From: Ottowia thiooxydans DSM 14619
GTDB lineage: Bacteria; Pseudomonadota; Gammaproteobacteria; Burkholderiales; Burkholderiaceae_C
Direction of reading: 5' to 3'
NCBI RefSeq assembly: GCF_000422885.1
Contig: NZ_AUGX01000001.1
Coordinates: 497,238 to 561,237 of the forward strand
Length of the DNA: 64,000 nt
A model generated the notes under the pieces. That model was not told the DNA's origin, searched no databases, and saw only the letters and a program-made list of their open reading frames with translations. Positions 16,969 through 33,002 of this stretch are shown here, in pieces. The stretch's first letter is position 1; the number at the start of each line of letters is the position of its first letter. A program made the translations under genes and the position numbers.

Positions 16969-17643
16969 ATGACCCACAATCCGCCGTCCGAAGGCCAGCA
17001 ACTCGACGAAAACTACGCGCAATATTCCGTCATCAACCGCCGGAATTTCCTCTCGGCCGCCGGCTTGGCCGCGTCGGGCAGCGCTCTGCTGGGCGCCAGT
17101 AACGCCGAGGCAGCTGCGGTGACTGCCGTTGGGCCACCCGGTGGTGCGCGCGGCGGCATGGCTGTCGTTACCGACAAGGACCGCGAGTACATGCGAGAGG
17201 CGATCCGCCTGATGCGCCAGGTGGGTGTGGTCGACAAGACGGGTGGCCCATTCGGTGCCGTTATCGTGCTCAACGGCAAAATCATCGCGGCCAGTGGCAA
17301 CAGCGTCGTCAAGGACAAGGACCCTACGGCCCATGCTGAGGTCAACGCTATCCGCATGGCCTGCCGTAACGTCGGTTCGGCTAACCTGACCGGCGCGGTG
17401 CTGTACACGAGCTGCGAATGCTGCCCCATGTGCTACGCCACAGCCTACTGGGCCCGCATCGACAAGATCTTTTTTGCCGCTGGCTGGCGCGACTACGACG
17501 ACATCTTCGACGACTCCAACATCGGTCTGGACTTAGCCAAGCCGTACCCGCAGCGCCAGCTCGCGCCTCAGCAAATCCTGCAGCAAGAAGGCCAGGCCGT
17601 CTGGCAAGAGTTCCGCAAGCTGCCGGACGGCGCGCGGTATTGA
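16969..17643 (+). CDS. Exported nucleoside/guanine deaminase-family protein
   Basis: 224 residues. Residues 22-50 are a Tat-type signal: NRRNFLSAAG with paired arginines, then a mild hydrophobic stretch ending near ASNAEAAA. Residues 65-200 are a cytidine-deaminase-fold domain with the zinc motifs HAEVNA (about 123-128) and CECCPMC (about 147-153; usual form PCxxC), as in guanine deaminase and related nucleoside deaminases. The C-terminal region (LDLAKPYPQRQL) also matches that family. A folded, cofactor-bearing deaminase exported by Tat would act in the periplasm, on purines or similar amino-heterocycles released outside the cytoplasm. The substrate is not determined by sequence. It stands alone on its strand. 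Confidence 0.9.
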   Translation: MTHNPPSEGQQLDENYAQYSVINRRNFLSAAGLAASGSALLGASNAEAAAVTAVGPPGGARGGMAVVTDKDREYMREAIRLMRQVGVVDKTGGPFGAVIVLNGKIIAASGNSVVKDKDPTAHAEVNAIRMACRNVGSANLTGAVLYTSCECCPMCYATAYWARIDKIFFAAGWRDYDDIFDDSNIGLDLAKPYPQRQLAPQQILQQEGQAVWQEFRKLPDGARY

Positions 17644-19020: not shown

Positions 19021-19415
19021 ATGTTCTCTTCTGTGGAAAGACTAACGCAATGTAACCCGCAACCCCTGCACTTGCCCGTGGTGATCACAGATGAAACCGG
19101 AACGGGGAAAGAGCTGGCAGCCAATGCCATTCATGAGCTTTCGCCTCGCGCCAAGCGCCCTTTCTTCTGGGTGAACTGCGCCGCCACTCCTGAGAACCTG
19201 ATCAATGCTGAGCTCTTTGGTTACGAAGGCGGTTCAATTCCATGCGCTCGTTCGCACGGCAAGCCAGGAGCATTGGCCGGGCTATTCAGGCCACCGGCGG
19301 AGACAAAGAGCGCGCGGCCGAAATGCTAGGCATCAGCCGCGCAACGCTCTACAGGAAGATCAAGCGCCAGGTTGGCGCGAACCCTGGTAGATCGAGAGTA
19401 TTACTAAAATCCTGA
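19021..19415 (+). pseudogene. Collapsed sigma-54-dependent transcription activator
   Basis: One frame (19021 to about 19235) encodes the start of a sigma-54 AAA+ domain: DETGTGKELAANAIHELS (Walker A) then PFFWVNCAATPENLINAELFGYE. A second frame (19242-19415) encodes a Fis-type helix-turn-helix (GDKERAAEMLGISRATLYRKIK). The rest of the AAA+ domain, about 170 residues, is missing at the junction, and the frames do not join. The Walker A Glu is changed to Asp. It is a deletion remnant with no expected activity. Confidence 0.85.
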
Positions 19416-19417
19416 GC

Positions 19418-20431
19418 ATGACCACCATGCCGCCGTCCTTTGTGGCTCACTTCCGATCTGATGACTGGGCTCCTGTCGAACGACGGGATGCGTGGTGCGA
19501 TGTGGCGCACCGCTGGGTGGACTTTCGCCCTGCGGCCGAAGTGCCCCTGCAGGCGGAGTTGAGTATCTTAGCTAGCGAGGCTTGCACGCTGGGCGTCACA
19601 CGCTCGTCGGCCTACGAGATGCGCACGGGCTCGCACCGGGCGCAGCCCGACGATATGGTGGTGCTCACCCTCATGCAGTCCGGCGGCCTTCTGCCTGATG
19701 TATACGGGCGCAAGGGGCCGGGCGCGCTAAGCCTGTGCGATCCGCGCGAGGTGGGCCGCTTTCGCTGGGAACAAGGCGCACGCCAGGTCTTTCTGGCCTT
19801 ATCACGCAGTGATGTGGCCGCCGCGCTGGGGCAGGCCCCTTTCACACAACTGTTGACGGCCCGCGGTGCGCTGGCTCCGCTGTTGTCCAACCACATGAAC
19901 CAACTGGCGCTGCTGCTGCGCCAGAGTGGCGAGGCCGACGGTCTGGTGGATGCCACCGAGTACGCGGACCTGCTGGACGCCACGCGCGCCCTGGCCCTGC
20001 TCACGCTGCGCAACCTGGGCCGCCACGCCCGCCACAGCCGCAGCGGCAAGCCAGCCGACGAACCCGACGTAACGCCCACCGACACTGAAATTCTGTATGC
20101 AGGCCGTCGTGCGGCGGCATTGCGTTTTATGGAACTGCACGCCCACCGCCCCGAACTAAGCGCCGCTGAAATCGCCCACGGTTCGGGCTGCTCGCGCACG
20201 CGGTTATACGAGGCCTTTGCAGCCGAGGACGGCACAGTGATGGACGCCCTACGCGAGATGCGCCTGCAACGCGCCCGCAGCTTCATTGAGCAGACTGAGC
20301 GCCTGAACGTGGGCGCGCTCGCGTGGCGTTGCGGCTTTGCCAGCCCATCTGGCTTTGCCAAGCTGTTCAAGGCGTGCTTCGGCATCTCGCCTTCGGAATG
20401 GCACCGGCGCGCCTGGGCTGCAGGTGCTTGA
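19418..20431 (+). CDS. AraC-family regulator (A), paralogue of the one at 28469
   Basis: 337 residues. Residues 1-200 are a diverged AraC N-terminal sensor of the AraC_binding_2 type (WAPVERRDAWCDVAH start). Residues 225-335 are two helix-turn-helix motifs: ELSAAEIAHGSGCSRTRLYE, then IEQTERLNVGALAWRCGFASPSGFAKLF. The DNA-binding half is almost identical to that of the regulator at 28469-29452, whereas the sensors differ much more. It converges on the large lipoprotein gene ending at 20587. AraC proteins of this type usually activate adjacent genes when a ligand binds. It starts 3 bases after the collapsed sigma-54 remnant. Confidence 0.93.
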   Translation: MTTMPPSFVAHFRSDDWAPVERRDAWCDVAHRWVDFRPAAEVPLQAELSILASEACTLGVTRSSAYEMRTGSHRAQPDDMVVLTLMQSGGLLPDVYGRKGPGALSLCDPREVGRFRWEQGARQVFLALSRSDVAAALGQAPFTQLLTARGALAPLLSNHMNQLALLLRQSGEADGLVDATEYADLLDATRALALLTLRNLGRHARHSRSGKPADEPDVTPTDTEILYAGRRAAALRFMELHAHRPELSAAEIAHGSGCSRTRLYEAFAAEDGTVMDALREMRLQRARSFIEQTERLNVGALAWRCGFASPSGFAKLFKACFGISPSEWHRRAWAAGA

Positions 20432-20586
20432 AAGCAGCTTTGAATGGCCGCTTCCGCTGAGAAAAATAGTCTGAATTATCTGAATAGACGGCGCTGGGCA
20501 GGAACACCCAAACCCACGGCCAAAGCCCCCCTTTCGCCGAGTGTGGGCAGGGGTTTGCTATGGGCGTGGCGGGTGGTGACGCCGGT

Positions 20587-23532
20587 TCACTGCAGCAGCA
20601 CGGCCAGCTTGTTGACGAGGTCCAGGCTGGTGGGGGTAACGATATCCATCGGCGCCCGCTCAGGGGCATAGTTGAACGCCTGTTTCAGACTCGCGCCCGT
20701 GGTGGTGGTGTTCAGCGGTAGCAGCATCAGCGAGGTGGCGTAGTTTTCGTCGATCTTTTGCAGCGCAGTGTCCACCACCGCGCCGTCGCTCATGCGCCGC
20801 ATCTTGTGCTCTTTGACGGGCAGCCGGAAGGCGTTGTAGGTTGCGTCGGACATTAAGGTGACGTCGTACGCTCCTTTGCGGAAATCGCGCACCGCCGCCG
20901 AGTGCGAAGCAGAATAAAGGGTCTCCCCGCCAGTGAAATCTGCAGGCATAGTAAGCAAAAGCGCATTGAACTTGCGCAGGCGCATGGGGTCATTGCCGGA
21001 CAGCGGGAAGTACACCGAGTAATCCCAGCTCATGTGCTCCAGAAAGGAGTTCTCGCTACCCGTCATGACCGCGCGCATGGCATTGCTGCCCAGCGCTTGG
21101 TAATCCGACCACAGGGGCTTCAGGCTCGGCTTCACGGGCACATCCCCATCGAAGGGCCGCACCACCCAACGGGCACCGTAGATCGCCTGGTAGGCACCGA
21201 AGTTCTGCACGAACACTAGCGCCGGCGCGTTGCCCTGGTTGAAAATGTAAACCGGGTACCAAGGCGTTTGGAGGGCCTTCATGCTGCTGCTGTAGAGCGC
21301 CAGCGGGTCAGCGTTGGGGTTGCTGAAATCCGCCGCCACCACGCCCTCTTTGCCCCTGTGTCCGCCCCGTTCCTGCGACAGCGCTGTCCAGGTGACCAGT
21401 TCCGCGCCACCGCTGCCGTCGCTCTTCCAACGCATGGGCAGGTAGCCGCCCGGTGCGGTGGCCCACGTCTTGCCCTTGACGGGGTCAAGCAGAGTGCCAA
21501 CGACGTAGTCGTAATAGTCCATGTCCTGAAGGCTCTTGTACAACTCGCTCTGCGCTTTAGTGGCGCTGGTACCGCCGAACATGGCCTGTTTGTATCCGGC
21601 AAGCACCTCAGGCGTGATGTCCGCACCCTGCCCGATCGCCAGGGCCACCAGGTCGTAGGCACGCGACGAGGCGGTCTGAAAAAACTGGTGGTAGCGCGCG
21701 CTCATCTCGGGCGTGACGTTGCTGACCGAGAGGTTGGCCAGAAAGCGCAGGTAGGAGTCGAGCTTGCCGAATTTTTCCACGGCCAGCATCATGTCCATCA
21801 ACTGGGGGAAGCTGCCAATGGCCTTGTCCATACCCGGAATCTCCAGGTTGGGGCGTAGCTGAGGGATGACGCTGTCGTAAGGCGTGGTCTCAAAGCCGCT
21901 AACGTACATCTTGTCGAAGCGCACGAGGTTGCCGTCGACCGCTGCGGCCGAAGCTCCAGCCTGCGGCGCCTGCTGGGGAACCCTGGCACGCTGCTTCAGG
22001 TCGTCGAGTTCGGCGATAAGCTGGAGGTAAGCGTTGCCGCCGCTGCCTTGACTGGCTTGCAGGCTCTTCCAATCGCCATCAACGATGATGGGCAGGCTCT
22101 CGGCGCGCTGGCGTGCTCGTTCCAGTTCCTCGGCGTCCTTGGCGCTCTTCTTGTCCGCCTGGTATTTCTTCCAGTCGTCATAGGAGGAAAACACCGAGTC
22201 CGGCGGGCCCTCCTGCTTTTCTTTCTTGGGGCCCACTGGGGTGGGCAGCTTCACGCCGGGGTCCTTGGGCAGGCCGCCCAGCGGCGGCACCACAGAGCTG
22301 CCTTGGTCTTTCAGCATGGTGTAGAGGCTGCTGACCCAGGCAGTGGTGTCTGCCACGCCGGCGGGCCATGACTCAGCAGAGACCTGCACGTTCTGCAGAG
22401 CCGAGGCCCAGCCGTTTTGCTTGTAATACTGGAAGGCACCTGTCGCTCCGGCGCCGAAGGCCGCAGTCTGGTATTCGGCCGAGAGGGAAGCACCGTACTG
22501 CGCTTCGGTGTTTCCGTCGGCACTGCTGAAGGTGAGCTGGCCCTTGCCAACGCCCTGGTTCATCGAGGTGGTCTGGGAGACGAACGAATCGCCATTGAAG
22601 GCGTAGAAATCAGCGATGGCGCTCTCGATCTTGCCGCGCAGCTCGGTCATCTGCAGGATGGATTTCGCCTTGATAGCGGCGTCAGAGCACAGCTCATGCT
22701 GGGCCCGGAGGTCGGCAAAGATACTCTCCATGCGCGAGAGCAACTGCATGTTGGCGTAAGGCTCGGCGTCGGCCATCTTGTAACGACTGATGGTAAGACC
22801 GGTGATGTGGGATTTGCCACCGCACACGTCGGCGGACGCGCTTTCGGTGACGCTGACGTAGCCGCGCAATTGCTCGTCGGTGAGCTGAGTGCCTATGAGA
22901 TAGGGGGTGAGGTTTTCACTGCCACTGAACCCGCTGCTCAAGATAGAGACGATGTTGTTGGTGTTGGCCGACACCATCTGCACGCTGATGGATCCATCGG
23001 AGTGGGTGTTCTTCCAGGCGTTGGCCTGGTGGTAGGCTGCCGCAGCCTTGAAGCCGGCGTAGGAGCCGGAGGCCGAGCCGTCGATGGTGGCCTGGCTGCT
23101 GGCCGAACTGGCGTTCTTGTTGCTGGTAAGCCTCAGCTCGGTCTTTTGCTGCGAGCGCGTGGTGTCCACGTTCAGCAGGTTATCGTCCTTGAGCCGGCCT
23201 AGGTCGAAAATGGGGCGCAGGTTGTAGGTAGAAGCGCCGGAGTCGATGCTGGCGCCAACCGACAGCGACTTGATGGTCTCTTGCGTGATGTCGGTACCCC
23301 GGCCGGCGGTCTTCAGGAAGCGATCGAAGTCTTCCTCGTCCATGGCCGCGTGCGCGGCCAGAGCGGGGTAACGTGAGGCGTAGGTGGGTTCTGTCTCGTC
23401 AGAGCCGCCGCCGCAACTGGCCAGGAGGAGCGTGCAGGCCAGCGCGGACGGCAGCATGGCCAAGCGGGTGGGCAGTAGTCGCGAGGCACCCGCCGAAGGT
23501 CGCGCAATGCAGGTTCGTGAAGCAAAGGGCAT
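20587..23532 (-). CDS. Large lipoprotein with MACPF-like features
   Basis: About 981 residues from the ATG at 23532; upstream (23580) and downstream (23457) starts are possible because no ribosome site stands out. A lipobox LASC ends at Cys40. Several features recall a MACPF pore-forming domain: an SGSYAGFKAAAAY stretch near 155-165, paired helical stretches at 230-310, a FYAFNGDSFVSQTTSMNQG segment near 310-328 where MACPF proteins carry YGTHF, and a later Gly/Ala strand (FGAGATGAF) before a Trp-containing stretch. The last 500 residues have no recognised domain. It is the last gene of the minus-strand cassette. The MACPF assignment is inference, not a database hit. An outer-membrane-anchored or shed protein is expected. 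Confidence 0.75.
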   Translation of the reverse strand: MPFASRTCIARPSAGASRLLPTRLAMLPSALACTLLLASCGGGSDETEPTYASRYPALAAHAAMDEEDFDRFLKTAGRGTDITQETIKSLSVGASIDSGASTYNLRPIFDLGRLKDDNLLNVDTTRSQQKTELRLTSNKNASSASSQATIDGSASGSYAGFKAAAAYHQANAWKNTHSDGSISVQMVSANTNNIVSILSSGFSGSENLTPYLIGTQLTDEQLRGYVSVTESASADVCGGKSHITGLTISRYKMADAEPYANMQLLSRMESIFADLRAQHELCSDAAIKAKSILQMTELRGKIESAIADFYAFNGDSFVSQTTSMNQGVGKGQLTFSSADGNTEAQYGASLSAEYQTAAFGAGATGAFQYYKQNGWASALQNVQVSAESWPAGVADTTAWVSSLYTMLKDQGSSVVPPLGGLPKDPGVKLPTPVGPKKEKQEGPPDSVFSSYDDWKKYQADKKSAKDAEELERARQRAESLPIIVDGDWKSLQASQGSGGNAYLQLIAELDDLKQRARVPQQAPQAGASAAAVDGNLVRFDKMYVSGFETTPYDSVIPQLRPNLEIPGMDKAIGSFPQLMDMMLAVEKFGKLDSYLRFLANLSVSNVTPEMSARYHQFFQTASSRAYDLVALAIGQGADITPEVLAGYKQAMFGGTSATKAQSELYKSLQDMDYYDYVVGTLLDPVKGKTWATAPGGYLPMRWKSDGSGGAELVTWTALSQERGGHRGKEGVVAADFSNPNADPLALYSSSMKALQTPWYPVYIFNQGNAPALVFVQNFGAYQAIYGARWVVRPFDGDVPVKPSLKPLWSDYQALGSNAMRAVMTGSENSFLEHMSWDYSVYFPLSGNDPMRLRKFNALLLTMPADFTGGETLYSASHSAAVRDFRKGAYDVTLMSDATYNAFRLPVKEHKMRRMSDGAVVDTALQKIDENYATSLMLLPLNTTTTGASLKQAFNYAPERAPMDIVTPTSLDLVNKLAVLLQ

Positions 23533-23614
23533 TTTGAATACTTGTCTGAAAAGTTCTCTGTTGAAGCCCGTGGGCTGCATGGTTTTTCTGGGTGTATCTG
23601 CTTTTCTATGGGCT

Positions 23615-24646
23615 TCAGCGCCTGGCAGTTAAGCGCCGTAAACTGATTCGACCCAAGTTCCGCCACCCCAGCGCCGCCAGCCCGAGCAGGACCGACAGCA
23701 GCGCCACACTCCATTCGCCCAGTGTGGGCACGGGCCGCGCGCCCACTGGGGGTGACGGCGCGTCGGTGTAGGTGATGGTGACGAAGCCATTGCCGCCCGC
23801 CTCTGCGGGTAGGTCCGGGCCGTCGCCAGTCGAGGCCCGGAAACTCAGCCCCCCATTGCTGCCGGGGGTGCAGGTACCACCGGTGCTGCCGCCACCGCCG
23901 CCGCCGGCGTCGGTATCGTCGCTGGATCCACCGCCGCCGCCACCGCCCCAGCCACCGCCGCCACCTGCGCCGCCGCCAACGAGTTGGACGTAGGCGCCAT
24001 TGCCACCGCTGCCCGTACCTGCGCCTGACCCGCCGTTGCCCACCAGCGCATTGGCCAGTGCGGCGCTACCGCTTGCGCCACCTTGGCCGCTCTGGCCCGA
24101 CCCGCCCGCATGGCCGCCAGTGCCTGCGATGCCGCCCGCGCCGCCCATGCCCGCGCTGCCGCCCTGGCCGCCTTGACCGTCGTCTGCCGCGTTGTCGCCA
24201 CCCGCTGTACCATGGCCGCCGCAACCGTGGCCACCCTGGCCCCAACCGCCGGTGTCGGAGACGCTGTTGTCGTTCTAGTACGAGCTGCCCCCGCCGCCGC
24301 CCGCCACGACCCAGGTGCCTCCCGCCTGAATGCTGCTGGCACCACCGCCACCTGCGGAGTGGCCGCTATTGCCGCCAGTGCTGGCGCCGCCTCCCCCGCC
24401 CACAACGATGGTGAGCGTAGCGCCCGGCGTGACGGCCAGACCATTCGCAGTGACGCTGCCTCCCGCACCGCCCGGCACGCCATCACCGCCTCCACCGCCA
24501 CCGCCCAGCGCCTGCACATTGATCTGCGTGACGCCTGGCGGCACTGTCCAGGTACCTGAGGCGCTGAAGGATTGTGTGGCCGCCGAAGCCGCCAGAGGCT
24601 GTGCAAGCAGGCCCAAAATGGCCAACTGCACTTTCGTCTTTTGCAT
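23615..24646 (-). pseudogene. Glycine-rich IPTL-CTERM protein interrupted by an amber codon
   Basis: The ATG at 24646 has GGAG 7 bases before it and a clean signal peptide (MQKTKVQLAILGLLAQ to AASA). An N-terminal beta domain (SASGTWTVPPGVTQINVQ) and a Gly-rich region follow. A TAG at 24275-24277 (codon 124) stops the frame right after GGGGSSY. Reading through, the same frame continues uninterrupted for 219 residues (NDNSVSDTGGWGQGG...) to VPTLGEW, a hydrophobic helix and an Arg-rich tail, an IPTL-CTERM signal. There is no frameshift: a single base explains the break. It could be a sequencing error, a recent nonsense mutation, or amber suppression. It lies in the exported-protein cassette between the two lipoproteins. 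Confidence 0.85.
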
Positions 24647-24723
24647 GTGGATACTCCAGTTTTTTAATAGCCTCCAGCACTTGTCCTGCAATTGCTTGAG
24701 GCATCTCTTTTCTTGAATCTGGC

Positions 24724-26799
24724 TTACGGCAGGTACTTGACCGGCACCGGGTAGCTCAGGTGGTTCTTGATCGCCGCTTCGTCGTTTTCCCGGCTCTGGT
24801 TGGGGTTGGCGCCGTTGCACCAGCGGTCGGAGTCAGCGTGTTTCTGTCCCTGCGGGGTGATGACGCTGCACGCGCTCTTGTCCACGATGGCCGCCTTGTT
24901 AGATGGGCAGTTGGCCAGCGGGCCGGTACAGGCCGCGAACTTCTCCTTGATGAGCAAGGTGTAGACGTTGTCCTGCGCGTCAGTGAAGCGCACCTTCATG
25001 GGGTAAGAGGGCATGGTGCCCACGCGAAAGCCAACGACCTTTCGGCCATCAGGCATAGTGACGTCCTGCTTGTCTTTCTCACAGTTCGGGTCGCCCGCGT
25101 CCTGACCCAGCGAGCAAACGCCGTATTTCTTAAGCAGTGGCTTGTTCTCGGGCACTTCGCTGGGTCCGCCCAGCAGCACCTCGAAGCCGTCGGCATAGTT
25201 GAAGGCCCGCCCGTTCTCCAGCCCCTGCTCGCCGCCAACGGTAAATACCAGGCCATTACCCAGCTCGCTCATGAACCCCACGGCGTCATCCACCGAGAAG
25301 CCATAGGCGCTCATGCCCAGGTCCTCGTGGATCAGCTTGACGTACGGGTTAAAGGTGAGCTTGGGGTTAGCCTGCACGGCAGGCTGCTTGTAGTTGTATT
25401 GCAGGTCCTGGATGTACATGCCCTGGATGTAGGCATGATCGCGGCCATGGGCCGTGGTGGTGCTCAGCTTGTTGGCTGCCGCGCCGCAACCTTCGTTGTA
25501 GGGCACCCAGCCATAGATGTGCTTGACGGCCTCCCAGTACTTGAATTCCGCCACGTGCTCCGGTGGCGTGCTGCCCTGGCAGGCTCCGCTGGCGTACAGG
25601 GCCAGGTACTTCCTGTGGTTCTCTGTGAAGAAATCCTTGATGAGGACCATGTTCGCCTTCATCGCATCGGGGGCCGTGCAATCTTGCGGATACTTCTTGC
25701 TTGTGTAGGCAGAAATGTCTTCGCTGCCCCAATCGACACAGGCGCCCCACAAGTCCTGAATGTTCTGCACGGACTGGCCCCATTGCATGTTGCGCTGTTC
25801 CTGCGGGGTGCATTGTTTGTCGATGCACTTCATCACGGTGAGCACCGGCGGATTCAGATTGTCCGGCGGCTGCACGGGCACGTCGGGATCCTTGATCAGG
25901 AAGCCCCCGCGCTGGGCAAATATGTTGTAGCCACCGGGCAGGCGCAGCTCGCTCATGTTGTAGACCGGCCAGCCCTCGCCCAGGTTGCCCAGGAAGCTGC
26001 GCAAGGTGCTGCGAAAGCCGCTGAGCTTTTGCGCCGATCCGCTGTAGCCAATGTAGGGATTTCCCCGCACGCCGATGGCCACAGGCATGTAGACATGATC
26101 GACGTAGGAGATGTTGTAGCCCACGTTCTCGGGTTTGAGTAGCCGCACGGACTGCCCACTGGGGATGTAGGCGTCGCCGAAGGTGTATTCGGACAACTGG
26201 GCGAAGGCATCTTCGGGGAACTGCACTTTGCTGGAATAGGTACTCAGATTGCAGGTGGTACCTTCGCCTTTGCAATTTACGCCACCCGGCGTGGCCATGG
26301 CCTTGTCTTCTTCATTGCGTAGGCGTTGGGTGCGGTCAGCCAACAGAACGCGCCCGCCATTCCACCAGGTGGCGTATTGCTTGGGCCCCAGTTCGCTGTA
26401 CAGCGGCAGCGTAATGGTGACCTCCGAGTTTGGCGGGATGCCCTGTCCGTCGTTGACGTAGAGTTTGTAGACCGATTCGGTGGGCAGCGGCTCGACCGTG
26501 CGCAAACACCCCTGCACCCATTCGTTGACCGCGTTAGTGCTGGTGGCCAGCACAGGGTAGATCTGGCCTTCGGAGTTGTTGCGGATGGTGATGGTCTTGG
26601 GCTGGACCAGCACGTCGTTATTGTCATAGTCCTTGCAGACGATGGGTTTGTTGGCCATGGGGGCGCCTCCAAGCCCGCCACCGCTTGCTGACTCGGAAGT
26701 GCCATTACCGCCACAGGCTACCAAGCTAGCGGTGAGAGCCAGAGCAACGACGGCGGGCACTGGGTGCGGGGTATGGCCGGGTGGAGGAGATGTGCGCAT
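24724..26799 (-). CDS. Lipoprotein with thaumatin/GH64-like N-terminal region
   Basis: About 691 residues from the ATG at 26799; an AGGA-type site stands 10 bases upstream. The lipobox LVAC ends at Cys29. Residues about 50-260 resemble a thaumatin-like or GH64 beta-1,3-glucanase fold: ITIRNNSEGQIYP, the WWNGGRVLLADR segment, a SEYTFGDAY strand and NISYVDHVYMPVAIG, which matches the fold's SYVD-LP motif. The rest (about 260-690) is Cys-rich with mostly paired cysteines and probably forms further secreted domains. No active-site residue could be assigned with confidence. Glucan binding or cleavage is a suggestion from fold resemblance only. It lies between the alpha/beta hydrolase and the amber-split glycine-rich gene. 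Confidence 0.7.
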   Translation of the reverse strand: MRTSPPPGHTPHPVPAVVALALTASLVACGGNGTSESASGGGLGGAPMANKPIVCKDYDNNDVLVQPKTITIRNNSEGQIYPVLATSTNAVNEWVQGCLRTVEPLPTESVYKLYVNDGQGIPPNSEVTITLPLYSELGPKQYATWWNGGRVLLADRTQRLRNEEDKAMATPGGVNCKGEGTTCNLSTYSSKVQFPEDAFAQLSEYTFGDAYIPSGQSVRLLKPENVGYNISYVDHVYMPVAIGVRGNPYIGYSGSAQKLSGFRSTLRSFLGNLGEGWPVYNMSELRLPGGYNIFAQRGGFLIKDPDVPVQPPDNLNPPVLTVMKCIDKQCTPQEQRNMQWGQSVQNIQDLWGACVDWGSEDISAYTSKKYPQDCTAPDAMKANMVLIKDFFTENHRKYLALYASGACQGSTPPEHVAEFKYWEAVKHIYGWVPYNEGCGAAANKLSTTTAHGRDHAYIQGMYIQDLQYNYKQPAVQANPKLTFNPYVKLIHEDLGMSAYGFSVDDAVGFMSELGNGLVFTVGGEQGLENGRAFNYADGFEVLLGGPSEVPENKPLLKKYGVCSLGQDAGDPNCEKDKQDVTMPDGRKVVGFRVGTMPSYPMKVRFTDAQDNVYTLLIKEKFAACTGPLANCPSNKAAIVDKSACSVITPQGQKHADSDRWCNGANPNQSRENDEAAIKNHLSYPVPVKYLP

Positions 26800-26928
26800 T
26801 TGAAAGAATCCTTGTAGATATCGGATTTGGGTTGGTTTGAGGGAAGGGAGCGCCTCGCACACGGTCGAGGCACTGGTACCGCCCGTCTTCGGCGTCGGCG
26901 TCGGCCTCGGACGGTGTACGGACATGAA

Positions 26929-28257
26929 TCAGGTAGCGAACAATTCGTCCAACCAGTCCATGGAGATGGCAGCCGAATACGCCAGGTTGCCGGTCTGGCA
27001 ATGGCCCTCAGCACCCTCCTCGGCCGAGAAGACGTGGCGCCGAACCGGGCCGCCGACCGTACGCAGGAAACGCTCGCACTGGGCCAGGGGCTCGGCACCC
27101 TCGCCAGCGCCGACCAGGGCCAGTGAAGGACAGCGGATACCGCGCAGCCCATCGTCATCCACGCGGAACTCGCGCAGGCGCAGGTAGGCCTGTTTGAAGC
27201 TGCGCTGCCCCATGCGTACGATCAGATTACGCATCATCTCGCGTGTCTGCGGGGGAACGGCGCTGTCAGGTATGTGGTCGATATCCTCCAGCCGAACATC
27301 CTCAGCATCTGGCATAAGGGCTGGATCGAACCCCACGAACGAGGCCATGTAGGCATGCAGATCGACGATAGGCGAGTTGGCGATGAGGGCGCGCACTCGT
27401 GGCTCGTGCGAGGCGATACGGGTAGCGAAGTAGCCACCGAAGCTGATGCCCATGAGCGCCACACGGCGCGGGTCGGTCTCGCGACGCGCCAGCACGTAGT
27501 CCAGCGCGAGGCGGCCCACGTGCTCGTATTCAGGAATGAAGGCCATGCCGGGGTTGGTACGCAGCGCGTCCATCTGCCCTGGGCCAGTGAACAGCAGCAA
27601 GTGGTAGCCACGCTCCAGCGCAGCAAGGCCGTAGGAAAGCCATGTTTCCTCCAGCGTGCCGTCGTAGCCGCTGATGAGCAGCAGTGTCTTGCCAGGACGG
27701 CCGCGCTTGGCGCCAGATTGACTGGGTGCGCGCACATAGTATGCGGGCAGCGATGAGCCACCAAAGCGCAGGAAGACCTCCTCCACATCCTGCCCACGCA
27801 CGGCGGCCAGAAAGCATTCGCGGCTCTTGCGGCCCAGGCGTGCGTGCTCGGGGTTCAAAACACCGCAGTAGTACTCGGCAGCGCGGTAGCTGTTGCACGC
27901 CACCAGGTACTGCTCGCGTGCGCTGACGGCGTGGCCCCGCAACGCGCGAACCCGTGCGTCAGCCTCCTGGCGCTGGGCAGCCTTGGTGAACTCTGCCACC
28001 CAACTGGCCGGAATGCCATTTTGTATGCGCTGCGCCAGCGCCAAGCATTCGCCCACCGACGCGCCACCATAGCGCGCCGAGCCCAACTGGCGGATCAGTT
28101 GGTAGTCCATCTCCGCGCTGGCAAAGCCAGCCACACGGGTGTTGCCGCGCTCCATTCGGGCGGCGGGCCTGGGCTGCGCCTGCGCAGGCAGGGCCAGACT
28201 GGCGACTGCAGCGGCCATGAAATGGCGGCGCGGCTGATGGGTGTGCAGATCTAGCAT
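26929..28257 (-). CDS. Exported alpha/beta hydrolase, FrsA/dienelactone-hydrolase-like
   Basis: About 442 residues from the ATG at 28257; the frame is open to 28365, but that extension has no signal. The N-terminus (QPRRHFMAAAVASLALPAQAQ) is a Tat-like or Sec signal. The central domain has LLISGYDGT as the oxyanion-side strand, GISFGG as the nucleophile elbow (Ser near 310), and a late GHCQTGN histidine. The helical N-terminal third before the fold is typical of the group that includes 2,6-dihydroxypseudooxynicotine hydrolase and FrsA-like proteins. A carbon-carbon or ester hydrolase acting in the periplasm is likely, with unknown substrate. It is the first gene of the cassette, divergent from the AraC regulator at 28469. 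Confidence 0.88.
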   Translation of the reverse strand: MLDLHTHQPRRHFMAAAVASLALPAQAQPRPAARMERGNTRVAGFASAEMDYQLIRQLGSARYGGASVGECLALAQRIQNGIPASWVAEFTKAAQRQEADARVRALRGHAVSAREQYLVACNSYRAAEYYCGVLNPEHARLGRKSRECFLAAVRGQDVEEVFLRFGGSSLPAYYVRAPSQSGAKRGRPGKTLLLISGYDGTLEETWLSYGLAALERGYHLLLFTGPGQMDALRTNPGMAFIPEYEHVGRLALDYVLARRETDPRRVALMGISFGGYFATRIASHEPRVRALIANSPIVDLHAYMASFVGFDPALMPDAEDVRLEDIDHIPDSAVPPQTREMMRNLIVRMGQRSFKQAYLRLREFRVDDDGLRGIRCPSLALVGAGEGAEPLAQCERFLRTVGGPVRRHVFSAEEGAEGHCQTGNLAYSAAISMDWLDELFAT

Positions 28258-28398
28258 AGAAGGCTCAGGTTTTCTCTGTTTTTTGATAGTTGAATACGAC
28301 AGACTGACAAGCGCTGGAGACTGAAATTTCCTTGAGCTCCACGGTGCGCAACGGGACATCTGCAAAGTCTAGGGACGGAGGCAGAGGCCCTGCGCATG

Positions 28399-28438
28399 AG
28401 ATTGAGCACAGGCGTCCCAGATTGAGCACACGCGTCCC
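28399..28438 (+). promoter_or_regulatory. Tandem 20-bp direct repeats, likely AraC-type operator
   Basis: Two adjacent 20-base copies, 28399-28418 and 28419-28438, read AGATTGAGCACAGGCGTCCC and the same with one G-to-C change. They lie 30-70 bases before the AraC gene at 28469 and between it and the divergent hydrolase gene. AraC-type regulators bind direct repeats spaced about two helical turns apart, as here. Confidence 0.6.
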
Positions 28439-28468
28439 GCGCGCCCGGTCATCACTAGAATTCGGTGC

Positions 28469-29452
28469 ATGTCGCACCCTTTGCCTCAGTCCCTGCTGAC
28501 TCACCTGCGCACCGACGCTTGGGAACCATCCGTGCGCAGGGATGCCTGGAAGGAGATCGCTCATCCCTGGGTCGGTTACGAACCCATGCCCGGCGTGCCA
28601 CTGGAGGCTGAGATGGACATCCTTCGGGGCAGCACTTGCGCCACCGGCTCCATGCGCTCTTCGGCCTACGACATGCGCACCGGCCCGCGCTGGCAGCGCC
28701 CCGAGGACATGGTGGTGATCTCGCTCATTCAGTCTGGCGAAATGCTGCCTGGCCTGGACGCACCCAGAGCCGCGGGCGGCATGGGCTTGTGCGCCACCCG
28801 GCGAGCGGGGCACTTTCGCTGGACCCAGGGCACCCGCTACGCCTTCATCGCCCTGCGGCACTGCGATGTGCAGGCCGCGTTGGGCCGCGAGCCTCCAGCC
28901 TCCCAGTCCATCAGCACCGCCCGCTGCGCGCTGGCGCCCGTACTGGCGTCCCACATGAATCACCTGACTCCGCTGCTGCGCCAGCGCGCCCAGGTGAACG
29001 ACGCGGAGTACGCTGACCTGCTGGATGCCACGCGCGCTCTGGCCCTGCTCATGCTGCGCAACCTGGGCCGCCAGGGCGAAAGCTCGGATCTGCCTGACAC
29101 CACCGAAAGCCTGCACTCGGGCCGCCGTGCGGCGGCGTTGCGTTTTATGGAACTGCATGCCCACCGCCCCGAACTAAGCGCCGCTGAAATCGCCCACGGT
29201 GCGGGCTGTTCGCGCACGCGGTTGTACGAGGCTTTTGCAGCCAGGAACGGCACGGTGATGGACGCGCTGCGCGAGATGCGCCTGCAACGCGCCCGAAACC
29301 TCATCGAGCAAAGCCAGCGTCTGAATGTGGGGGCAATAGCGTGGCGCTGCGGCTTTGCAAGCCCATCGGGTTTCAGCAAGCTGTTCCGGCTGCGCTTTGG
29401 GCTGACACCCACTGAATGGCATCTGCACGCGCAGACCAACACAACGGGCTGA
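28469..29452 (+). CDS. AraC-family regulator (B)
   Basis: 327 residues. It has the same layout as regulator A at 19418: an N-terminal sensor (about 1-200, WEPSVRRDAWKEIAHPW) and a C-terminal pair of helix-turn-helix motifs (ELSAAEIAHGAGCSRTRLYE, then VGAIAWRCGFASPSGFSKLF). The DNA-binding half matches A almost base for base over about 330 bases, while the sensors are only moderately similar. It is divergent from the hydrolase gene and probably drives the minus-strand cassette from 28257 to 20587. The tandem repeats at 28399-28438 are a likely binding site. Confidence 0.93.
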   Translation: MSHPLPQSLLTHLRTDAWEPSVRRDAWKEIAHPWVGYEPMPGVPLEAEMDILRGSTCATGSMRSSAYDMRTGPRWQRPEDMVVISLIQSGEMLPGLDAPRAAGGMGLCATRRAGHFRWTQGTRYAFIALRHCDVQAALGREPPASQSISTARCALAPVLASHMNHLTPLLRQRAQVNDAEYADLLDATRALALLMLRNLGRQGESSDLPDTTESLHSGRRAAALRFMELHAHRPELSAAEIAHGAGCSRTRLYEAFAARNGTVMDALREMRLQRARNLIEQSQRLNVGAIAWRCGFASPSGFSKLFRLRFGLTPTEWHLHAQTNTTG

Positions 29453-29759
29453 GTAGCCGCAGATTTTTGCTACGGCAGCCCGTGATGCCCAGCCGCCTAA
29501 TCGTTGCCCTGCGCGTCCCATGTTCGGCTCTTCGTCTGTACCCTGGGCGGCAAACTGCTCCAAATTGTCGGGAAATATTCCTTCAATCTAGAATGGATCG
29601 ACCAGAGAAAATAGTTTTCTTAAGTAGTTAATAAAGACCGGCCTGTACCCGTCGATTGCTGCATAAAGCTTACCTAGGACACTAGATTGCGCCTATCCAC
29701 AGATGTGTAGGGTTGACACTCCATATCCCCGCAGGGTGAAGAAATAAAGGACAACTGAT
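29453..29759. other. Intergenic stretch upstream of LuxR gene
   Basis: No gene supported. A TTGACA at about 29713-29718 may be a -35 element for the LuxR gene at 29760, but no good -10 follows. Confidence 0.3.
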
Positions 29760-30542
29760 TTGCTGGATTCAGCCGTTCAAGAAGATATTCACAGCTTGTG
29801 GGATGAACTAACGGACTTCGATGCAGGCCAGACCGATGCGGCCGCAAGACATCTGCAGGAGCGCCTGTGCCGCATGGTGGGGGCGTGGAATTCGACCTGG
29901 GGTGGTGCTACCCGCCTCGACCCTGGCCCGGACAACGATGACCCTCTGCAAGGCTGGCGCGTGGCCGTCACCCGGCTGCTCTACCCCTTCGAGGCACCCG
30001 CCGAAGACGGGCCATTCCAGGAACTGCAGAAGCGCTGGAACAACCGCGAGATGGATGTTTCCTTCTTGCAGCCCATGCAAGGCATCGGCCAATTCCGCAC
30101 CTACGGGCACAGGCGCGACCTGCCGCCGGAGTGGTTCGACGGACCGGTGTACCAGATGTTCAGTGCGCGCTACGGCATCGTGGATTCACTATGGGTGGGT
30201 TTTCCGATCAACAGCGATGCGGAATCGCATTTCGGCTTCTATTCTCATAAGGTCTTTACTGACAAGGACTGCGAACTGCTGGCCTACGCGCTGCGCGGCA
30301 TCAAGTGGTTTCACCGCCAACTCATGCTCACCAGCGGGCCGTTGGTAGCGAAGTCGCCATTAACGCCAACCGAACGCAAGGTGCTCAGGCTGCTGCTGAC
30401 CAAGGCATCGGAGCGTGTCATCGCGGATCAGCTTGGCCTGGCTGTCTCTACCACGCACCAGCACATCGTTGCCGTGTTCCGAAAATTCGCAGTGCGCAGC
30501 CGTGCTGAATTGATGAGCTTGTGGCTGGGCAGCAAGAGTTGA
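29760..30542 (+). CDS. LuxR-family transcription regulator
   Basis: 260 residues from a TTG at 29760; AAAGGA stands 8 bases before it, which decides the start. The first 190 residues have no recognised domain, though they could be a PAS/GAF-like sensor. The C-terminal helix-turn-helix is clear: LTPTERKVLRLLLTKASERVIADQLGLAVSTTHQHIVAVFRKF-like sequence, with the second helix binding DNA. It converges on the IPTL-CTERM beta-helix gene ending at 30596, 53 bases away. LuxR proteins of this layout act on their own neighbours, so regulating that gene is plausible but not shown. Confidence 0.85.
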   Translation: MLDSAVQEDIHSLWDELTDFDAGQTDAAARHLQERLCRMVGAWNSTWGGATRLDPGPDNDDPLQGWRVAVTRLLYPFEAPAEDGPFQELQKRWNNREMDVSFLQPMQGIGQFRTYGHRRDLPPEWFDGPVYQMFSARYGIVDSLWVGFPINSDAESHFGFYSHKVFTDKDCELLAYALRGIKWFHRQLMLTSGPLVAKSPLTPTERKVLRLLLTKASERVIADQLGLAVSTTHQHIVAVFRKFAVRSRAELMSLWLGSKS

Positions 30543-30595: not shown

Positions 30596-32542
30596 TTAGT
30601 TTCGAAGGCGTTTTCGCCACGGGACGAAGCCACCCAGAAGCCCTGACAGCAGTAGCCAGCCCCATGTGCCCAGCGTGGGGATGGCCGTTGGGCTGGCGCC
30701 GCCTCCACCGCCCCCGACATCGCCACCCGGTCCGGTTACCGTCAGGGTGAACACCGCGCTGGCGGTGCCGTCCTTGTCGGAGGCAGATAGCAGCAGCGGG
30801 TAGATGCCGGGTGTACCGGGTGTGCCGGTGAGCAGGCCAGTGGCGGAGTCGAACCCCAGACCTGGCGGCAGCGTGCCCAACAACGCGTACGACTGCAGGG
30901 AATCGCCGTCGGTGGCCGTCACGTACTGCGCCAGCGCGTGGCTGAAGGGCTGGTTCACCAGCGCGCTGGCGCTGCCGGACGCCACGGCGGGCGGCGTCGG
31001 CGCGTCGGAGCCACCGCCCTGTATCTGCACTGCCACGCAGCGCGAGAACTCCGAACTGGCCGCGAATCCATTCACACCGATCCAAGTGGCTGTCAGCGCC
31101 ACATGGGTGTAGCCGGTTGGTAAGGCGGAAAAGCTTAACGCGCCGGCCCAACCGCCGCTCGCGAAGGTCTGTATGTTGGCCGCACCCAGGAAGGCCTGGC
31201 CCTCGCCATAGCCGCTGACGTTGCAGGCAGTGCTAGCGAAAGCTTCCACGCGGAAGTTGGCACTGGGTCGCAGGCTGTCCATCAGCGTGGTGTGGATCTG
31301 CGTGCCGGCAGCGCTGCCGGTGGCGCTGGCGATCATGGGCAACTCTTCAGCCCAAATGGGCTGGGGTTGCGCGGGGTCAGCGCCCACGACAAGGGGGTTG
31401 CCAGGGTCGATCAGTTCAATGCCCAGCGCACCGTTGCTGTAGATGCTGTTGCCACGCCAGTTGTTCCCCTGGGGGTTCCTGACCTGCAGAAGGTTGTGCT
31501 CCACGCGGATACCGTTGCCGCCCCAGTGGGCGATGGCATTACCCTCGCCAGCGCTGGTGCCGCCCACGCGGTTGTTCCAGGGGAAGGATTTGTTGATGTT
31601 CATCCAGTTGCGGATGAGCACACCGTGGCCGCTCCCACCGATGGAAGCACTGCCGTCGGCGCCCACGCCGATGCGGTTCGACCGGATTTCGTTCGCGTCA
31701 CTCTCGTTCACGATGTCAATACCTGTCTCGCGAGCGCCAATCACGTTGCTGCGGATGGAAACGCTGTTGCTGCCCATCACCTGGATACCGATGGGCGCAC
31801 CGCCGCGCAACTGGTTGCCACTGCGATCCGTTCCAATGAGGTTGTCGTGGATGGAGGTGCCCAGCACCTTGTCGGTAGCGAGAATGCTTATGCCGCCATC
31901 GCTGGCCACAATCAGGTTGCGTCCAGCGGGCGTGCCATTGCCCACCGAGGTGCCCTGGGCACGGTTGGCGACGCCTACCCCGCGCCCGTTGGCCAGCAAG
32001 CCCGCCACATCGTCCGCCGAGCCACTGCCATCTGTGCCGATGAAATTGCCAAGGACTTGCACGCTATACACGTCGTTCAACTGCTGGGAAGTAACCCACA
32101 CGCCCGTGTTGCCGAACCGAGTAACAGCCAGCCCGCGCACCACTGAACCAGACGTGCCGCGCACCAGTTGCAGGCCAACCGCGTTGGCCCCGGCGTTCGC
32201 GCCATCAATCCGCACCGTGATGACCGCGTTGGTCCCCGTAGCCGCGCTATTGGGCGTTCCGCCGTTGGTGTAGCCGTCGATGGTGACCGGGTAGGTGATG
32301 AACGGCAGCGGTGTGGCCGGGCTGATGATGGTGGGCACGCCGCCGAAGTCGAACGCAATAGTGTCGCCCGGCTGCGCGTGGTCGATGGCCGCGCGCAGCG
32401 TACAAGTGGAACTACCCGTGTTGCAGTGCACCGCACCACCCAGCGGCGCGTCACCCGCGTCAGTCACGGTGACCGTAGCAGCCCCTGCAGCGACAGGCAG
32501 CCATATGCAGGCCAGGGATAGTGACAACGGGAAGCGGGGCAT
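30596..32542 (-). CDS. Beta-helix IPTL-CTERM surface protein
   Basis: About 648 residues from the ATG at 32542; a longer frame to 32632 lacks a signal. Residues 1-20 form a signal ending at AAGAAT. Residues about 25-340 form a right-handed parallel beta-helix (CSLREA-like start TCTLRAAIDHAQPGDT, repeated IGTDxxG segments). Residues about 517-607 look like a putative-Ig domain (GSASALVNQPFSHALAQ, GLLTGTPGTPG). The C-terminus is IPTLGTWG, a hydrophobic helix and KRLRN. It is a paralogue of the 53939-55609 protein: the first 100 residues share TIDGYTNGGTPN and other blocks. It should be exported and processed by an exosortase. Confidence 0.9.
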   Translation of the reverse strand: MPRFPLSLSLACIWLPVAAGAATVTVTDAGDAPLGGAVHCNTGSSTCTLRAAIDHAQPGDTIAFDFGGVPTIISPATPLPFITYPVTIDGYTNGGTPNSAATGTNAVITVRIDGANAGANAVGLQLVRGTSGSVVRGLAVTRFGNTGVWVTSQQLNDVYSVQVLGNFIGTDGSGSADDVAGLLANGRGVGVANRAQGTSVGNGTPAGRNLIVASDGGISILATDKVLGTSIHDNLIGTDRSGNQLRGGAPIGIQVMGSNSVSIRSNVIGARETGIDIVNESDANEIRSNRIGVGADGSASIGGSGHGVLIRNWMNINKSFPWNNRVGGTSAGEGNAIAHWGGNGIRVEHNLLQVRNPQGNNWRGNSIYSNGALGIELIDPGNPLVVGADPAQPQPIWAEELPMIASATGSAAGTQIHTTLMDSLRPSANFRVEAFASTACNVSGYGEGQAFLGAANIQTFASGGWAGALSFSALPTGYTHVALTATWIGVNGFAASSEFSRCVAVQIQGGGSDAPTPPAVASGSASALVNQPFSHALAQYVTATDGDSLQSYALLGTLPPGLGFDSATGLLTGTPGTPGIYPLLLSASDKDGTASAVFTLTVTGPGGDVGGGGGGASPTAIPTLGTWGWLLLSGLLGGFVPWRKRLRN

Positions 32543-33002
32543 GGCTTGGAAGTCCGGGGTGAGAACCACCGGGTATTTTTCGGAATTCGCTGCGACTTGT
32601 ATTGGCTGTACACGCCATGCAATTGGCTCCATGTGACATAGCCCTGCCTATACGCGGCACTCTGGAAGTGGCATTTTTTAATATCAGTCACTGATCCAAT
32701 TTATTCTCATGAGGTGGTTACAAAAAAACTAGCACACTCTGTATTTCTCGGGAAACCTCATAACCGGTACCACTGAATATTCGTGATTAACTATTGACTT
32801 AAATTCAAGCAGCGCCGCCGTTGGCTGTCTCCATACCCGATTCTGAATCCGGCGACAGTAGGCGGGTACGGCAGCGTGTGCATGTAGCAACGTAATCTGG
32901 AACTAGTCGAATGAGCAAGCTTTCTGTGGTCAACCCACCTGCGACCCTTGGCCGGCCCAGGTGACCAGATCTTGCAGCAAGGCTTGCGAGATATCTCATC
33001 AT
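32543..33002. other. Intergenic stretch without a supported gene
   Basis: About 460 bases. AT-rich at 32680-32800, which may hold the promoter of the beta-helix gene. No gene is supported. Confidence 0.35.

Follow-up and report, generated by a model that had tools for sequence, protein, structure and literature searches.

The window analyzed here, a stretch of 64,000 nucleotides of the Ottowia thiooxydans DSM 14619 genome (contig NZ_AUGX01000001.1), was found to carry a cassette of genes for exported proteins, the order of which is kept in other genera, together with purifying selection and a common tandem operator. The cassette looks like a genuine, inducible system and not like a chance grouping, because several relatives share both the conserved gene block and a paired DNA switch; for the cassette and the switch alone our confidence is high. 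The constituents are an alpha/beta hydrolase exported by twin-arginine translocation (Tat), a probable GH64/thaumatin-superfamily lipoprotein (GH64lp), an orphan lipoprotein (LP997), AraC-type regulators (AraC1 and AraC2) and a LuxR-type regulator, joined in most relatives by a lipoprotein of the beta-lactamase fold; apart from LP997, these are parts of known kinds. The unit and its switch are well supported, while the target and the mechanism are what we infer. The first-pass annotation of this DNA had placed a plus-strand AraC gene at each end of a series of minus-strand frames, which the coordinates bear out (Table 1). The set runs past the end of the interval it gave, to the LuxR-type gene. 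Note that the start codons of the hydrolase, GH64lp and LP997 are our choices among the in-frame candidates.

LP997 was detected at eight distinct loci, namely the window, L010, L011, L015, L016 (Pigmentiphaga), L017 (Comamonas testosteroni JL40), L018 and L019 (L009 and L018 are one locus, as are L014 and L015). L015 lies at a contig edge, and the neighbours of LP997 were readable in the remaining seven loci, the window included. GH64lp was directly beside LP997 in all seven, and the hydrolase preceded the two in six (all but L016). The beta-lactamase-fold lipoprotein was present in five (missing from the window and L016), as were an AraC gene (none seen in L010 and L016) and the LuxR gene (none seen in L010 and L011; incomplete in L019). 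In the common order, the LuxR and AraC genes lie outward and are followed by the hydrolase, the beta-lactamase-fold protein, GH64lp and LP997. L011 differs in that the beta-lactamase-fold gene comes after LP997 and the AraC genes are co-oriented with the operon, and the window in that AraC1 is convergent and situated at the far end of the cassette. The conserved co-occurrence with an AraC gene, which the first-pass annotation had proposed to look for in sets of genomes, is thus observed in five of the seven loci, along with a recurring gene order.

The window hydrolase is 73-87% identical to those of L010, L011, L017, L018 and L019. In the pairs computed, the ratio of nonsynonymous to synonymous substitution rates (dN/dS) was 0.08-0.30 for the hydrolase, GH64lp and the beta-lactamase-fold protein, and 0.08-0.26 for the first two alone; the hydrolase and GH64lp are under purifying selection. 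That the genes are mere chance neighbours could be argued from a broken IPTL-CTERM gene in the window, the absence of members from some loci and the variable flanks. Nevertheless, the gene order kept across genera and the common operator render this explanation scarcely credible, and for GH64lp, LP997 and the hydrolase it is refuted.

The switch is represented in the window by a tandem repeat, GGGACGC-N13-GGGACGC, lying before the hydrolase gene, where GGGACGCGTGTGCTCAATCT is directly followed by GGGACGCCTGTGCTCAATCT. Direct-repeat operators of the araI1-I2 type are known for AraC/XylS regulators, and the geometry found here is as expected of an AraC operator, making the repeat a candidate site: two direct half-sites are two helical turns apart beside the regulator gene, and each half-site comprises two conserved blocks approximately 10 bp apart, as two helix-turn-helix (HTH) motifs would read. 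Unlike the araI1-I2 systems, two AraC paralogues occur in one cassette, and the sensing domain matches AraC_binding_2 below the cut-off (AraC1) or is unmatched (AraC2). Related pairs amount to nine sites in seven loci with a period of 20 bp (21 bp in L017); they occur at cassette genes in six of the seven readable cassette loci, and also before a GH64lp paralogue of this genome.

A regular-expression scan of 502,068 bases, some of them overlapping, found only sites of this kind, and a background of 400,000 bases from contig C1 of this genome contained no such pair. This count is partly circular, because the sites were first seen by eye. Fairer tests are the leave-one-out scores and the two L011 sites that were found by the scan and by a matrix, respectively (Table 1). 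When each of seven sites with a 20-bp period was omitted from the matrix in turn, it reached 20.3-47.4 bits, whereas the best among about 800,000 background positions had 7.0-13.1; the L017 site reached only 13.9 bits against a background best of 9.3. The consensus with three mismatches was found twice in the window against a mean of 1.89, which is no rarer than chance; what lends weight to the operator is the exact site together with the matrix scores, not this count. More telling are the site of the paralogue and those lying at further genes of L011. No site was detected in front of AraC1 or in L010, and no AraC gene was seen in the latter either. Pigmentiphaga has a site although the stretch examined holds no AraC gene, which would make sense only if the AraC gene lies elsewhere.

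LP997 is confined to few genomes. It was found in two of 41 close relatives, this genome counted, and in one of 369 genomes of the class, namely this one. Six of 349 genomes of the family were matched, two of them by unrelated proteins; the weak matches in G099 and G273 were dropped, as their sequences seem to be those of an ATPase resembling coupling proteins and of a PhoX-like protein. Two LP997 peptide patterns run over 84,980 species genomes led to five loci, in Rubrivivax sp. SJ498 (at a contig edge), Pigmentiphaga humi, C. testosteroni JL40, Acidovorax sp. MR-S7 and a metagenome-assembled genome of Moraxellaceae. The contig of the last has a G+C content of 63.6%, and its locus may stem from a binning error. 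Searches of plasmids found neither LP997 nor GH64lp, and a search of viral contigs gave no match.

As to what the cassette does, we tentatively favour a module of the outer membrane that is switched by AraC and acts on a polymer resembling beta-1,3-glucan, although the chance that this chain holds in full seems to us somewhat short of even. An AraC dimer would bind the two direct half-sites and turn on the operon upon sensing a soluble cue. The lipoproteins would be exposed on the outer membrane; there, GH64lp would grip or cleave such a polymer, derived from fungi, oomycetes or algae, and the two serine hydrolases would trim acyl or amide groups off the released material. LP997, the tail of which varies fastest, would face a changing target or partner, and the LuxR regulator would set a second condition, perhaps related to surface or density. 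The module is supported by a second locus of this genome, in which an AraC gene, GH64lp and the operator recur and the hydrolase and LP997 are missing.

The glucan part of this proposal starts from GH64lp, which is probably a divergent member of the GH64/thaumatin superfamily, whether enzyme or binder. GH64 was its commonest Pfam match, weak in five of the eight members (best expectation value, E, 0.013). The motifs SEYT, N-x-[ST]-x-VD, PGGYN and AYGF-x-x-DD were found in this order in seven of the eight proteins, and the eighth, that of Pigmentiphaga, has them in order with AYAF in the last. None of 20,000 shuffles matched the ordered pattern, a figure that is only a guide because the pattern was drawn from 3gd0 and these same GH64lp proteins. 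The same four motifs in the same order are seen in the laminaripentaose-producing GH64 beta-1,3-glucanases (PDB 3gd0/3gd9), from which GH64lp differs in being a lipoprotein, in 14 additional residues between the acids, in about 180 extra C-terminal residues and in a similarity that stays under the Pfam cut-off. E246 and D276 of GH64lp are invariant in all eight members and correspond to what we take to be the catalytic acids of 3gd0, E154 and D170. When GH64lp and a typical GH64 protein were aligned with MAFFT alone, the VD motif was matched up, and SEYT, PGGYN and AYGF were not.

Among 399 genomes of the order, GH64lp matched in three, namely this genome (at two places), G453 (a GH16-like fusion protein) and, weakly, G412. 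With hhalign, the GH64lp profile aligned to the GH16-like fusion protein of the other Burkholderiales genome over 251 columns (Prob 82, E 1.1e-5). Altogether, the label 'thaumatin/GH64-like' of the first-pass annotation finds support in the motifs and in the fusion match, albeit under the Pfam cut-off. The fusion (L025:5107-7275) is a lipoprotein-like protein of 722 residues, of which the N-terminal part is GH16-like by eye and the C-terminal part aligns with GH64lp; such a combination suggests beta-glucan as the substrate class. The second GH64lp copy of this genome (L024:8746-10944; 60% identical) has an AraC gene of its own downstream (52%) besides the operator, and neither the hydrolase nor LP997 was present within the 20 kb examined.

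Several observations weigh against the glucan module. All Pfam scores of GH64lp were under the PF16483 cut-off of 27 bits (12.8-15.2 bits in the three shown), hhalign of GH64lp against the GH64 protein of the MAFFT comparison gave no significant result (Prob 2.9), and a search of PDB with the GH64lp profile gave nothing at E up to 10. The best relatives of the hydrolase are of the peptidase and polyketide types, with no glycan enzymes among them, and no transporter was recognized among the identified cassette genes, none having been searched for specifically. The composition is modular: no beta-lactamase-fold gene is present in the cassette of the window, Pigmentiphaga has neither this gene nor the hydrolase and retains the operator without a visible AraC gene, and L010 is devoid of both the operator and an AraC gene. 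LuxR relatives occur in G248 (58%) and G281 (33%), where the stretch examined contains none of the other cassette genes. Furthermore, the operator sites are not independent, because several precede orthologous genes and share common ancestry.

The hydrolase bears the Tat motif RRHFM, a nucleophile elbow (GxSxG; GISFG 306) and a histidine motif (GHCQ 454), and matches Abhydrolase_6 over the cut-off. In the relatives, the beta-lactamase-fold lipoprotein matches Pfam Beta-lactamase with an E of 1.3e-54 and keeps the SxxK/YxN/HxG motifs (SVSK 96, YTN 187 and HSG 337 in L017); the closest protein of this genome is 45% identical and encoded outside the cassette. The nearest solved relative of the hydrolase is the SMU_737 acylaminoacyl peptidase (3fnb, E 3.7e-28), with DHPON hydrolase, AntI and Ayg1 further away. 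The cassette hydrolase shares the fold family by sequence and the Ser/His motifs with SMU_737, AntI and Ayg1, but unlike them it is exported through Tat and encoded in a lipoprotein operon. Such relatives would suit a module that breaks down or detoxifies an acylated small molecule, in which the hydrolases act, the lipoproteins capture the substrate and AraC senses it. Consistent with this idea, the hydrolase is better conserved than GH64lp and LP997 in most pairs, the AraC proteins score on FeaR and AndR of NCBIfam (catabolic regulators by name), though far under the cut-off, and a LuxR relative (about 41% identical) on a Martelella plasmid lies near a TpsB-type gene and a gene for a beta-lactamase-fold protein (47%). 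We nonetheless consider it unlikely. Pigmentiphaga yields only LuxR, GH64lp and LP997, and the paralogous locus only GH64lp and AraC, implying that GH64lp, and not the hydrolases, is the constant part.

LP997 appears, on the sequences, to be a large protein family undescribed in Pfam, NCBIfam, PHROGs, PADLOC and the PDB sequences: no match was obtained in Pfam, PHROGs, PADLOC or PDB, and in NCBIfam only one at an E of 0.1, far under the cut-off. We infer that it is an outer-membrane lipoprotein; LP997 and GH64lp have the lipoboxes LASC and LVAC, respectively. The LP997 relatives are mutually 62-86% identical, and dN/dS was 0.60 in the single pair computed (L018/L010), which differs at 138 residues, 42 of them within residues 801-900 (L018 numbering). 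Among seven proteins, conservation outside the signal region was lowest in two blocks of the window protein, 481-520 and 881-960. The variable parts of LP997 are its C-terminal portion, where the variable block spans 841-960, and a linker near 481-520.

The variable tail would also suit an attack module, in which LP997 were a MACPF-type pore-former steered by GH64lp to a glucan-coated target cell. Stretches of LP997 rich in alternating small residues resemble pore hairpins by eye, and GH64/thaumatin folds include glucan binders, according to PMC13251364 and PMC13106811. Nevertheless, Pfam MACPF matched none of the seven LP997 proteins at E up to 10 (HMMER filters apply), hhalign of LP997 against one Burkholderiales MACPF-domain protein returned a Prob of 0.6, and the genome of the window had no MACPF family match. 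Structure prediction, another check that the first-pass annotation had proposed, was run for GH64lp and LP997 on five-row alignments, and the mean predicted local distance difference test (pLDDT) scores of 32.6 and 31.5, respectively, the latter for an AlphaFold model, were too poor for use. The first-pass wording 'MACPF-like' received no support from either of the two sequence tests. We hold the attack module to be improbable; of the attack on fungi or predators that had been suggested, what is left is favoured by the GH64 resemblance alone, the pore-former being without sequence support.

The glycine-rich IPTL-CTERM protein, which the first-pass annotation had counted among the cassette members, has to be withdrawn. 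An in-frame TAG splits the gene into a fragment of 123 residues and a second part downstream that carries the IPTL tail; this tail scores over the cut-off in a frame that is not intact, and no counterpart was found in other loci, the gap between GH64lp and LP997 being only 43-80 bases in L010, L011, L016, L017, L018 and L019. IPTL-type proteins do flank the cassette in the window, L010, L018 and, by eye, L019. In this genome, at least 75 IPTL-CTERM matches were counted at E up to 1 and at least 58 over the cut-off (lower bounds, 150 of 240 candidates having been scored), and seven start within positions 9890-64000 of the window, six of them over the cut-off. The genome is very rich in IPTL-CTERM surface proteins, with a local cluster in the window. 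These proteins invite the view that the lipoproteins and hydrolases maintain the cell's own envelope or surface layer by remodelling its exopolysaccharide or IPTL-CTERM coat, and LuxR relatives of about 41% identity on plasmids lie beside an autotransporter gene (Roseibium) and the TpsB-type gene mentioned above. The adjacency is weak evidence in a genome with so many IPTL proteins, and the absence of the cassette from nearly all relatives searched is unlike a maintenance function; we rate this view as clearly unlikely.

The two AraC proteins of the window are less alike than initially described: their DNA-binding halves, called 'nearly identical' in the first pass, share 80% (87/109) and their N-terminal halves 53% (113/214). 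Both carry the C-terminal pair of HTH motifs typical of AraC/XylS regulators. AraC1 falls into the same clade as AraC2, L019_a and L011_near_hyd, and AraC2 is 71% identical to the AraC protein at the same place in L019. The LuxR protein is 78-93% identical among the window, L016, L017 and L018, and four of 280 family genomes were matched in a search with it. The motif CTATCCAC-N2-AT-N2-GTAGGG precedes the LuxR gene in all five cassette loci that have one and was found nowhere else in the loci examined; it was absent before the more distant relatives in L039, L040, L047 and L048. The LuxR gene is less strictly tied to the cassette. In L010, an apparent OmpR-type response regulator and a sensor kinase were noted by eye at the AraC position (L010:16178-18801). 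A swap of regulators is possible in this locus, which has the full cassette with neither AraC nor operator.

The glucan module proposed above resembles polysaccharide utilisation loci, as these are generally defined, in combining a regulator, outer-membrane lipoproteins and a glycan-hydrolase fold. It differs in that no SusC/TonB transporter was identified (no dedicated search was made) and in that serine hydrolases take the place of further glycosidases. PADLOC at E up to 0.01 returned nothing for LP997, GH64lp, the hydrolase, AraC1 and the beta-lactamase-fold protein, and LuxR matched two of its models in the HTH region only.

Table 1. Positions of the cassette features in the window and of the candidate operator sites in other loci.
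Feature	Position	Strand	Remarks
AraC1, AraC-type regulator, 337 aa	19418..20431	+	convergent with LP997; HTH_18 E 2.3e-15
LP997, orphan lipoprotein	20587..23580	-	likely start 23532; lipobox
Glycine-rich IPTL-CTERM gene	23615..24646	-	frame broken by TAG 24275-24277
GH64lp, probable GH64/thaumatin-superfamily lipoprotein	24724..26799	-	open frame up to 26925; likely start 26799
Tat-exported alpha/beta hydrolase	26929..28257	-	likely start 28257; Tat motif RRHFM
Candidate AraC operator	28399..28440	-	two direct GGGACGC..GCTCAATCT copies, 20-bp period
AraC2, AraC-type regulator, 327 aa	28469..29452	+	divergent from hydrolase; HTH_18 E 1.1e-16
Candidate regulatory motif of LuxR gene	29693..29712	+	CTATCCAC-N2-AT-N2-GTAGGG
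LuxR-type regulator	29760..30542	+	GerE HTH, E 8.1e-10
IPTL-CTERM beta-helix protein	30596..32632	-	adjoins LuxR gene; loosely associated with cassette
Operator site	L018:4715-4756		between AraC and hydrolase
Operator site	L017:2292-2334		between AraC and hydrolase; 21-bp period
Operator site	L019:1885-1926		beside AraC gene
Operator site	L016:7475-7516		before GH64lp
Operator site	L011:12598-12639		before GH64lp; found by scan
Operator site	L011:16140-16181		before an AraC gene
Operator site	L011:15035-15074		over start of another AraC gene; found by matrix, 21.5 bits
Operator site	L024:8644-8685		60 bp before GH64lp paralogue

Several further features were noted at the edges of the cassette. 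The contig of L017 carries just the cassette and ends in 59-base inverted repeats (L017:1-59 and 10459-10517; 98% complementary), one past the LuxR stop and the other over the LP997 stop. The repeat was not found in the other loci then compared, and it suggests a dispersed repeat or the boundary of a mobile unit. Near the ends of LuxR or LP997, a GATAGCTGCTTGCGC / GCGCAAGCAGCTATC repeat was seen by eye at L018:1380-1545 and 12800-12990, L010:7880-8060 and L015:2790-2990, and looks like a dispersed hairpin repeat. Beside AraC1, a short frame at 19021-19329 of the window is, by eye, like a broken AAA+ domain of a sigma-54 activator, which suggests a past rearrangement at the cassette edge. Also by eye, a nucleoside-deaminase-like protein with an apparent twin-arginine signal, an odd location for such an enzyme, is encoded at 16969-17643. 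A promoter scan of the sequence gave one site against 2.8 in shuffles; terminator-like sites numbered 19 against 9.5 in shuffles and were scattered over genes, and were therefore left unused.

No description of this combination was found in the open-licence literature searched, PMC13251364, PMC13106811 and PMC4960229 included. Two AraC genes around four exported proteins have become a delimited unit, for which an operator and a class of substrate are predicted. If the glucan reading is true, the cassette would represent an uncharacterised route by which beta-proteobacteria meet fungi or algae. A bolder proposal, which we put forward as a decidedly long shot, is that LP997 founds a new, fast-evolving family of outer-membrane effectors and, together with a glucan-gripping GH64-fold lipoprotein, recognises or breaches beta-glucan-walled microbes (fungi, oomycetes and algae), being switched by AraC through a dedicated tandem operator. 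Were this true, the system would constitute a small contact-dependent organ of Gram-negative bacteria, exchangeable and directed against eukaryotes or serving for feeding.

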